Assembly: GCF_014643735.1 (NCBI RefSeq)
Contig: NZ_BMKA01000001.1
Coordinates: 682,001-746,000, forward strand
DNA: 64,000 bases
From: Neptunicoccus cionae
GTDB taxonomy: Bacteria; Pseudomonadota; Alphaproteobacteria; Rhodobacterales; Rhodobacteraceae
Direction: 5' to 3'
A model generated the notes under the pieces. The model had not been told where the DNA came from, did no database searches, and saw only the letters and a list, made by a program, of their open reading frames with translations. Of this stretch, positions 29,891 through 33,070 are shown in pieces. Both the position numbers and the translations under genes were made by a program. How positions within the stretch are numbered: the stretch's first letter is position 1; the number at the start of each line of letters is the position of its first letter.

Positions 29891-31426
29891 ATGAAATTAC
29901 GATTGATATTAGGCGACCAGCTTAGCCAGAACATTTCAAGCCTTTCCGATGTGGACGCGCAAAAGGATGTTGTCTTGATGTGCGAAGTCCGCAGCGAGGC
30001 AACCTATGTAAAGCACCACAAGAAAAAGATCGCGTTTGTCTTTTCTGCGATGCGCCATTTTGCTGACGCGCTGTCAGATGAAGGCCTGAATGTCCGATAC
30101 GTGCGCTATGATGACCCAAAAAACGCGGGGTCGTTGCGCGGGGAAGTCGCCCGCGCTTTGGACGACTACGACATTGACGAAGTGATTGTGACAACTGCTG
30201 GCGAACACCGTCTTGTTCAGGACATGGCTGGTTGGGCGGAAAAGTTGGACGTAGCGGTCTCCATCAGGGATGATGATCGCTTCCTGTGTAGCGCGGCGGA
30301 ATTTGCCACATGGGCGGAAGGTCGTAAGCAATTGCGGATGGAATATTTCTATCGCGAAATGCGCCAGAAATACTCCGTATTGATGGACCAAGATGGCCCG
30401 GTTGGGGGGCAGTGGAACTACGACGCGGAAAACCGCAAACCAGCTGAGGCGGGATTGGACGTACCAGCGACCTATAAGGCGAAACCGGATGCGATCACGC
30501 AAGAAGTTATCGATTTGGTTAACGCCCATTTCACGGACCATTTCGGAGACCTGACACCGTTTCACTTTGCGGTCACGCGCGATCAGGCCATTTCTGCGTT
30601 AGAAGAATTTATCGCGCGTCGGTTAAAACTGTTTGGCGATTATCAGGATGCGATGATCCAAGGTGAGCCTTGGATGTACCACAGCCATATCGGTCTTTAC
30701 GTCAATTGCGGGTTGCTGGACCCGTTGGACTGTATCGAACGCGCGGAAGCGGCTTATCACAAGGGCGCGGCCCCATTGAACGCGGTCGAGGGGTTCATCC
30801 GTCAAATCCTCGGATGGCGCGAATATGTGCGCGGGGTGTATTGGCTTAAGATGCCGGATTACAAAACCGCGAACTATTTTGATGCCGACCGTGCCTTGCC
30901 CGACTTCTACTGGAGCGCCGAGACGCAGATGAATTGCATGCGGCAGTGCATTACCGAGACCAAACAAAACGCCTATGCGCATCACATTCAACGGCTGATG
31001 GTGCTTGGGAATTTTGCATTGATTGCGGGCTTGGACCCTGACGAGGTCAATAATTGGTACATGTTGGTTTACGCAGACGCCTATGAATGGGTCGAACTGC
31101 CGAATGTCTCGGGGATGATTTTATATGCAGACGGCGGATTACTCGCTTCTAAACCCTACGCGGCCAGCGGTGCCTATATCAACAAAATGTCCAATTATTG
31201 CGGTTCTTGCAAATACAAGCCCACGGTCAAGAACGGGCCAACCGCGTGCCCTTTCAACTACCTTTATTGGGATTTCATTGCGCGAAATGAGGGCAAGCTA
31301 AGGGGAAACCCGCGGATGGGTTTTATGTACAAAAGCCTCGATCGTATGGGGGATGAAAAGCGCCAAGCGGTGCAGGACGACACCCGTAGATTTTTCAAAG
31401 CGATAGAAGCAGATGAAAAAGTCTGA
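29891..31426 (+). CDS. FeS photolyase/cryptochrome, PhrB (CryPro) type
   Basis: The 511-residue protein has the photolyase-related N-terminal Rossmann-like domain (about 1-140) and the FAD domain (about 170-500). Four Cys match the [4Fe-4S] ligands of Agrobacterium PhrB: C349, C437, C440 and C453, against C350, C438, C441 and C454 there; C353 is extra. Typical motifs are WRKQ-like [34 protein letters not shown] and [27 protein letters not shown]. The C-terminus overlaps the next gene by 14 bases. PhrB repairs (6-4) photoproducts using blue light and needs iron. Confidence 0.9.
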
Positions 31427-31574
31427 CCTGCCGCACAAGAACTGCGCTTGTTGCGGTCTGCCGTTCGCGTGGCGCAAGAAATGGGCCAAGGTTTGGGATG
31501 ATGTAAGATATTGCTCAGAGCGGTGCCGCCGCACGCGCACGCCCACAAAATCCAGCAAAGGCAGTGCAGCATGA
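31413..31574 (+). CDS. DUF2256 zinc-ribbon protein (53 residues)
   Basis: This gene is easily missed. It starts at ATG 31413 inside the end of the photolyase gene and ends with TGA at 31574, overlapping the next start by 4 bases (ATGA). The product contains LPHKNC-x2-C (C11, C14), [14 protein letters not shown] and YC-SER-C (C34, C38), which is the whole DUF2256 signature: a four-Cys zinc-binding core around a basic WRKKW helix. In DUF2256 the family function is unknown, but it is often encoded beside photolyase/cryptochrome genes, as I recall. Confidence 0.88.
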
Positions 31575-32806
31575 TGCCGAAACCAGATCCTTCCGCAATT
31601 CTACCATCAGAAGTGGTCGCGTTTGAACCGACGCGCAAAGCCGGACTTGAACGGCTGGACAATTTTGTCGCGCGCACTGGCGCGCATTACGCATCCCATC
31701 GGAATTATGATTATGGGCCGCAGCACCGCAGCTCTGTTTCGGCCCTGTCGCCGTGGATCAGACACCGGCTGATCACTGAAGAAGAGGTGCTGAGAAAAAC
31801 ACTTGCGCACCATGGCCCGAGTGCTGCCATGAAGTTTATAGAAGAGGTGTTCTGGCGCGGGTACTTCAAGGGATGGCTGGAACAACACCCGAGCGTTTGG
31901 ACAAGCTATCAAACGGGTCTTCAGGCTGCTTTGGCAACATTGAAAACCGATGCGGTGCGTAATCTGGATTACAACGATGCAATCGCTGGGCGCACAGGGA
32001 TCGCGTGTTTTGACCATTGGTGCCAAGAGCTTGAAAGCACGGGTTATCTGCACAATCACGCACGGATGTGGTTTGCATCAATCTGGATTTTCACTTTGCG
32101 ATTGCCGTGGGAACTGGGGGCCGATTTCTTTCTGCGTCATCTGATTGACGGTGACCCTGCGTCTAACACGCTAAGCTGGCGTTGGGTTGGCGGCTTGCAT
32201 ACGAAGGGCAAGACGTATCTGGCCCGCGCCTCAAACATCGCGAGTTTTACCAACGGTCGTTTTGAACCGACTGGGCAGCTTGCGACACATGCGGACCCCC
32301 TGTACGAGGATGCAGAGCACCCGTTCGTTCCGCTGTCCCAACCCGTATCACAGGTTCCGGAGGGTTACTTGCTGTTGATTACTGCGGAAGATTGCCTGCC
32401 GGAGCAGACGCAAACAGGATCGCCAAAGGGTGTTTTGGGCCTTGTTGGCATGGCACCGCCCCGACAGAATAGCAATGTGACTGCGTTTCAAAAAACTGCT
32501 GTTGAGGAGGCGGTGAAGCGAACAGATCCAAACGGGGCTACCTTTGTGCCGACAGGGAACTGGGCAGAAACCATCATCAATGCTGCCACCGATGCGGGAA
32601 CCAAGGATGTTCTTACTCCTTGGGCGCCGGTTGGACCAACAGCATCGTACCTTGCCGCTGCACGGCCCCAGCTATTGGATGCTGGCATCCGCTTGCATGA
32701 AACCCGCCGTGCCTATGACACACTCACATGGCCACACGCCGACAGGGGCTTTTTCAAACTGAAGAAGAAAATCCCCACAATCCTAAGCGCGCTTGACCTT
32801 TCCTAG
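31571..32806 (+). CDS. photolyase/cryptochrome-like protein with reversed domain order
   Basis: ATG 31571 (MMPKPDP) gives 411 residues; the 31511 start would overlap the DUF2256 gene out of frame. Residues 50-235 form a photolyase FAD domain: [14 protein letters not shown] (55-68), [12 protein letters not shown] (89-100), [13 protein letters not shown] (161-173), [16 protein letters not shown] (193-208). Residues 262-405 look like the alpha/beta domain that in photolyases precedes the FAD domain: [75 protein letters not shown]. No photolyase-like domain exists before residue 50. Whether it repairs DNA or senses light is unknown. Confidence 0.78.
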
Positions 32807-32854: not shown

Positions 32855-33070
32855 ATGAAAACCACCGACGATATCCCGCCAGAGCACATCAGCGAAATCA
32901 TCCAAATGGCCTTATCTGATCATGTTAGCTTTGCTGATATTCACGCCGAATACGGAATCAGTGACAAACAGGTAAAACAGCTTATGCGATCAGAGCTGAA
33001 AAGCAGCAGTTATAAAACCTGGCGAAAACGGGTGCGGGCCTTTGGGGATCGCAGAGCTGTATATAAGTAA
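32855..33070 (+). CDS. DUF2805/TIGR03643-family small protein
   Basis: The 71-residue protein shows the family pattern: IPPEHISEIIQMALSDHVSFADIHAEYGISDKQVKQLMR followed by SYKTWRKRV. The first part reads like a helix-turn-helix (DIHAEYGISDKQVKQLMR, about 27-44), so DNA or RNA binding is possible. It is the last of four co-directional genes with the two photolyase-type proteins and DUF2256, 48 bases after the preceding stop. The function is not known. The family is frequently found beside cryptochromes, as I recall. Confidence 0.75.
   Translation: MKTTDDIPPEHISEIIQMALSDHVSFADIHAEYGISDKQVKQLMRSELKSSSYKTWRKRVRAFGDRRAVYK

Follow-up and report, generated by a model that had tools for sequence, protein, structure and literature searches.

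The window, the whole 64,000-nucleotide stretch of Neptunicoccus cionae DNA analyzed here, carries a photolyase gene of reversed domain order within a cluster of four genes. The annotation of this gene is based on its open reading frame (ORF), Pfam hits, an AlphaFold model, and fold matches. The features of the locus are the following:

29891..31426, + strand: upstream DPRP / FeS-BCP-type (6-4) photolyase gene (N-terminal PF04244, E 1.3e-88)
31413..31574, + strand: DUF2256 gene, 53 aa, cysteine-rich (PF10013, E 8.1e-21; start picked from the frame)
31571..32806, + strand: gene of a very probable NewPHL-type photolyase, 411 aa, with the FAD domain preceding the alpha/beta domain
31601..32317, + strand: FAD/catalytic domain, residues 11-249 (PF03441 at residues 89-236)
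32342..32803, + strand: C-terminal photolyase-type alpha/beta domain, residues 258-411
32747..32776, + strand: conserved 10-residue block of the C-terminal domain, residues 393-402
32855..33070, + strand: DUF2805 / TIGR03643 gene, 71 aa, helix-turn-helix-like (PF10985, E 3.2e-17; TIGR03643, E 1e-18)

The DUF2256 gene overlaps the 3' end of the DPRP gene, and the start of the NewPHL-type gene in turn overlaps DUF2256 by ATGA. In the related loci L001-L004, L008, L009, and L016, the open frame 5' of the start spans no more than about 20 residues. Because the start sits inside the DUF2256 overlap and the upstream frames are short, there is no room for a missed N-terminal domain, and the reservation attached to the original prediction, that an alpha/beta domain might have been overlooked at the true start of the gene, is ruled out. 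The DUF2256 and DUF2805 genes, the former by its overlap and the latter across a gap of 48 bases, are linked into the photolyase operon of the window and may have some part in photorepair or in its regulation.

Parts of this arrangement recur elsewhere. Among 18 related loci, some of which end at contig ends, DPRP is found upstream in 7 (L001-L007), DUF2256 immediately upstream in 9 (L001-L009), and DUF2805 downstream in 9 (L001-L007, L014, L018). All three neighbors are absent from the five plasmid loci L019-L023. A canonical-looking photolyase/cryptochrome of ~510 aa adjoins the inverted gene in 8 of the 14 loci listed (L001:6525-8102, L003:3626-5170, L008:6136-7677, L011:3371-4894, L014:1102-2640, L018:5371-6987, L023:4058-5581, and a copy in L005 that is broken in frame); the neighbors in L001 and L023 (Bacteroidota) were checked by Pfam. 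Among the ORFs of the window, no such canonical-looking gene adjoins the inverted one.

The FAD domain of the window protein is recognized by Pfam, by sequence matches in the PDB, and by its fold, with about the last 60 positions of PF03441 unmatched in the Pfam alignment. When the full model is used, VIA matches cover the FAD domain only, and the PDB sequences found at E 1e-20 or better, three in number, are all canonical photolyases matched over this domain. The site-by-site comparison uses the residue roles of the E. coli photolyase. The window protein keeps the counterparts of E. coli E274, W277, N341, M345, W359, D372, D374, N378, W382, and W384. In an alignment of 59 fused rows, which counts at least 4 genes twice (L105, L108, L110, and L115 are second copies of L033, L086, L035, and L034), the W277, N341, W359, D372, D374, N378, and W382 sites hold the same residue in all 59 rows, the M345 site holds Met and the W384 site Trp in 57 each, and the E274 site has Glu in 56 and Gln in 3. 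The counterpart of R342 is His in 59 of 59 rows, so the substrate contacts would differ from those of class I enzymes. The chain tryptophans of the window protein are W180 and W203, with no Trp in residues 111-149. The window protein lacks an Fe-S cysteine motif, as do 57 of the 59 fused rows; two rows were unscored.

These features suggest how the protein might work. Domain content and order, predicted folds, conservation of catalytic residues, gene neighborhood, and distribution were computed here, while the specificity for cyclobutane dimers (CPDs) and single strands and the role of the C-terminal domain are likely ones, carried over from the published class. The window protein would most likely bind FAD in its helical domain, with N199 (E. 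coli N378) beside the flavin, and be photoreduced via a short Trp chain or pair. A CPD flipped from single-stranded (or distorted) DNA might then enter a cavity of E92, W95, N162, M166, and W205 and be split as FADH- transfers an electron to it. Rather than holding a strong antenna, the C-terminal domain probably packs on the catalytic domain so that the FAD site is closed. Together, the NewPHL-type and FeS-BCP-type enzymes of the operon would cover both main UV lesions.

A blue-light photoreceptor (cryptochrome) in place of a repair enzyme would fit two features of the neighborhood: the group to which the operon partner belongs includes R. sphaeroides CryB, a reported gene regulator (passages of PMC9178010), and the helix-turn-helix-like DUF2805 gene comes next. 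This role is nevertheless unlikely, as the counterparts of E274, W277, N341, M345, and W384 are kept nearly invariably, and passages of PMC13274461 and PMC9426592 credit members of the published class with CPD repair. A CPD photolyase is the preferred reading of the window protein.

The C-terminal part is predicted to fold as a photolyase alpha/beta domain, in agreement with the original prediction. AlphaFold models the domain alone with a pLDDT of 86.6, and the best VIA matches to residues 258-411 are the N-terminal domains of photolyases (best Z 9.8). Among the 50 VIA rows listed, most N-domains of photolyases and cryptochromes align over 133-146 residues, and only 3zxs (110) and 8a1h (115) fall short of this range; universal stress proteins (Z 9.3 and 9.0) align over 103-128 residues, and alignments of >130 residues belong to photolyases/cryptochromes and a single mitoribosomal subunit (7pua_Ff, 144). 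In Foldseek searches with this domain, cryptochromes/photolyases take ranks 1-5 and a universal stress protein rank 6, with zero matches at E < 0.001.

Sequence comparisons connect the domain to its canonical counterparts by a detour. Single-sequence searches of Pfam and NCBIfam do not detect an alpha/beta domain in the window protein. With hhalign, the profile of 21 family C-terminal parts matches 20 canonical N-domains with E 0.027 (score 19.3; best control 25.4), and that of 49 rows with E 0.0089 (score 21.6; best control 25.9); the controls being 30 window proteins taken as single sequences instead of profiles, this direct match lies inside the control noise. A chain of two profile steps leads further. 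The C-terminal domain matches the separate alpha/beta proteins described below with E 3.1e-5 (score 34.8, compared with 11-12 for reversed sequences and 25.9 for the best of 30 controls), and these proteins match the canonical alpha/beta domains with E 2.2e-11 (score 70.9). Among the approaches tried, only this chain and the fold succeed in tying the C-terminal domain to the photolyase alpha/beta domain.

Conservation within the C-terminal domain is highest at residues 393-402. In this block, GFFKLKKKI is identical in 18 of 18 rows of alignment A1, from which L006 (in-frame stop near the start) was excluded and which alone includes the partial L014, L015, and L018; it is less strict in further members, e.g., L021 and L036. 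Its aligned counterpart in the separate alpha/beta proteins is RFFRYWNKxKK. When 9 alpha/beta stretches from relatives, some separate and some fused, were searched against Pfam, PF00875 was among the matches in 4 (E 2.3e-4 to 0.17, all under the curated cutoff) and absent in 5. Two Persicobacter C-terminal parts have no direct match to canonical domains and match the separate alpha/beta set with E 3.5e-8. In six loci, a model of separate and Deinococcus alpha/beta sequences matches the N-terminal part of a long neighboring frame (E 2e-6 to 7e-6); the frame inspected, in L091, is a canonical photolyase with PF00875 at that place.

An unrelated Rossmann-like domain, e.g., of the universal stress protein kind, might have been fused to a FAD-only photolyase instead. 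The VIA Z scores of the stress proteins come near that of the best photolyase, one of them ranks sixth in a Foldseek search with nothing at E < 0.001, and the direct profile score falls within the controls. Such an origin is very improbable, however, given the shorter stress protein alignments among the VIA rows listed, the profile chain that runs through the separate alpha/beta proteins to the canonical domains, and the ability of the alpha/beta model to find the N-terminal parts of the six long frames, including the one with PF00875. Fold and indirect profile evidence support a view of the C-terminal domain as a diverged form of the photolyase alpha/beta domain, and it is probably the "Z-domain" mentioned in passages of PMC9426592.

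The order of domains noticed originally in 31571..32806, with the FAD domain first and the alpha/beta domain last, is thus confirmed by Pfam, AlphaFold, and fold matches. The accompanying statement that the alpha/beta domain always precedes the FAD domain in known photolyases does not hold: the published NewPHL/Phr7 class has the reversed order (passages of PMC13274461 and PMC9426592). The suggestion of a circular permutation or a swapped fusion is supported. Of the two routes, the gene arrangement favors the swapped fusion and not a classical permutation of the duplication type, since in relatives each domain has its own gene and the two genes are neighbors that keep this order.

In these relatives, the FAD-only genes have open frames of 246-313 aa, except for two that extend upstream to 477 and 596. 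They display traits of the short photolyase-like (SPL) group, namely, class I similarity and the absence of an N-terminal alpha/beta domain; the Fe-S cysteine motif is present in 4 of 28, absent from 18, and unscored in 6. Passages of PMC9649867 describe SPL as similar to class I, devoid of the N-terminal alpha/beta domain, and in some cases endowed with an Fe-S cysteine motif.

A separate alpha/beta ORF (131-173 aa) is found directly downstream, on the same strand, in 28 of 28 FAD-only loci examined, which come from 27 alphaproteobacterial genomes (8 from a 289-genome set and 19 from a 121-genome order sample) and 1 Deinococcus plasmid; 5 of the 25 FAD-only genes in the order sample got no locus and are outside the 28. 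Examples of such separate alpha/beta genes, among others, are the following:

L089:2211-2672, + strand
L092:2189-2620, + strand
L093:978-1409, - strand
L088:1100-1495, - strand
L096:3106-3627, + strand

Of the 28 downstream ORFs, 21 were outside model building, and all 21 match the model at E 6e-29 or better (search size 1000). The alpha/beta gene begins -8 to +14 bases from the end of the FAD-only gene, with the start set by rule at the nearest ATG (one GTG). Its reading phase relative to the FAD-only gene, which is independent of the choice of start, is +1 in 16 loci and +2 in 12 and is in frame in none. The occurrence of two phases speaks against one conserved programmed frameshift, a mechanism considered for phr4/phr5 in passages of PMC9426592; in these lineages, the two junction phases would argue for a translationally coupled heterodimer. 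With the same model, a separate alpha/beta gene is absent from 18 of 18 long-frame loci (L100-L117), where the model has matches in three, at E 2.2e-4, 8.1e-4, and 2.5, the first two inside long neighboring frames. The order sample of 121 genomes contains FAD-only genes in 25 and fused-length genes (377-460 aa, called by frame length only) in 18, with both in none (E 1e-40 or better).

Both arrangements occur on Deinococcus plasmids, where the domains are fused in L020:2842-4215, L022:2956-4326, and L097:2492-3910 and split in L096:2336-3627. In the FAD tree, which leaves out ten near-duplicate rows and L109 (no anchor), 49 fused NewPHL-type rows fall on one side of a branch (98/99), and three fused Deinococcus rows nest within the split group, where they join three split rows (99/83). 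Given this nesting, fusion or fission would have happened more than once; the root is uncertain, and long branches lead to the canonical outgroup. L002, L004, and L009 were deliberately omitted from the first tree, which also lacks ten anchorless rows (L008 and nine partner photolyases), and L006 is in neither tree.

On balance, we lean toward the view that SPL represents one subunit of a two-gene photolyase, whose alpha/beta domain is encoded in an overlapping or adjacent downstream gene. The absence of the domain would then reflect relocation, not ancestry, and the fused reversed forms (NewPHL and Deinococcus) would have arisen, or the genes would have split, more than once.

A scan of the genome contig collection yields 18 loci; going by title, 16 are alphaproteobacterial and 2 belong to Marinimicrobia (Fidelibacterota). 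Of 289 genomes from the class to which the Aquisalinus relative belongs, 30 match at E 1e-30 or better: 21 encode the fused form, 8 a FAD-only gene, and 1 a canonical photolyase. Among 150 genomes drawn from the phylum, 5 encode the fused form and 1 the FAD-only form, and in a draw of 398 genomes, 20 match with E 1e-40 or better, where the frame is long in 18 and FAD-only in 2. Complete fused genes are found in 4 of 149 genomes of the Marinimicrobia phylum and partial ones in 2, one of which stops at a contig end before the C-terminal domain. In a scan of IMG/VR with one peptide pattern, a weak test, none of 54 pattern matches was confirmed as a relative, and a viral structure library gave zero matches at E 0.001 or better.

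Individual genomes add some details. One Marinimicrobia-phylum genome (G307) encodes two different inverted-photolyase copies, on contigs C54 and C60 (L048 and L066). The metagenome-assembled L006:2501-3637 has an in-frame stop near the gene start and is either a pseudogene or the product of a sequence error. In genome G010, L018:5001-5162 retains only about the last 50 codons of an inverted photolyase, beside DUF2805 and a canonical photolyase, and two more PF03441 genes, whose frames measure 422 and 418 aa, are located elsewhere. Could this fragment be a remnant after duplication or transfer?

To the NewPHL-type genes, the window adds one more, whose operon also encodes a (6-4)-type photolyase. 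The two-gene reading of SPL outweighs it in importance and is the part that specialists might not expect. The lack of the alpha/beta domain is the reason why SPL have been put forward as ancestors of the entire family. If the published SPLs are like the relatives described here, the domain has not been lost but forms a second subunit, which would make them a weaker model of the family ancestor; and if SPL is always paired with an alpha/beta gene, the argument for a family origin without this domain loses its footing. Such a pair would also offer a natural two-subunit photolyase for probing the role of the antenna domain. Coexistence of two-gene and one-gene forms is already known in picocyanobacteria (passages of PMC9426592). 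The present analysis extends the two-gene form to Alphaproteobacteria and Deinococcus and connects it with SPL. These points do not appear in those passages of PMC9426592, and the term SPL is absent from its main text; the original SPL and NewPHL papers may note them.

A class with the reversed order is already published (2020-2022), and the window gene is a further member of it; that its product is a NewPHL-type photolyase is very probable, the assignment being made by features, not by alignment to published NewPHL sequences. NewPHL was reportedly described by Emmerich et al. (2020, NAR 48:12845), who are also said to have dealt with the role of its C-terminal domain. Passages of PMC13274461 speak of an "inverted domain topology" and name NewPHL sequences from D. 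shibae, Methylobacterium, Erythrobacter, and Rhodospirillum. The same class is called Phr7 in passages of PMC9426592, where it combines an N-terminal FAD domain with a C-terminal "Z-domain," has no Fe-S cysteines, and, in D. shibae and M. mesophilicum, is a single-strand CPD photolyase. The window protein shares with NewPHL/Phr7 the N-terminal FAD domain (residues 11-249), the short C-terminal photolyase-type domain (residues 258-411), and the absence of the Fe-S cysteine set. Its W180 and W203 fit, by description, the "mere Trp dyad" reported for Dinoroseobacter shibae NewPHL in passages of PMC8948257, and the hosts of NewPHL are alphaproteobacterial, like the nearest relatives found here. 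In this comparison, which is by description rather than by sequence alignment, zero differences were found.

The closest relatives of Phr7, according to passages of PMC9426592, are the cyanobacterial reversed-order photolyases encoded by two genes, phr4/phr5, or by the fused phr6. Like the window protein, these proteins of marine Synechococcus and Cyanobium have the FAD domain first and the alpha/beta domain second; unlike it, they carry Fe-S cysteines, again as compared by description. The shared order might suggest that the window protein is a (6-4) photolyase, as passages of PMC9426592 predict for Phr4/Phr5 and Phr6, but this is very unlikely, as that prediction rests on Fe-S cysteines that the window protein lacks, and a (6-4)-type gene already adjoins at 29891-31426.

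SPL (Xu et al. 2021, MBE 38:4505, as described in passages of PMC9649867 and PMC9178010) resembles the window protein in having a FAD domain close to class I/III CPD photolyases and no N-terminal alpha/beta domain; it is said to be without this domain altogether, whereas the window protein carries one at its C terminus. The FeS-BCP traits, PF04244 and Fe-S cysteines, are both absent from the window protein, with PF04244 present in its neighbor at 29891-31426. In Pfam searches, the class I trait of PF00875 before the FAD domain is likewise absent. With class I CPD photolyases (E. coli PhrB and S. elongatus 1owl), the window protein has in common the catalytic domain and most of the FAD and CPD contacts, and it differs from them in the reverse order of domains and in having His as the counterpart of R342.
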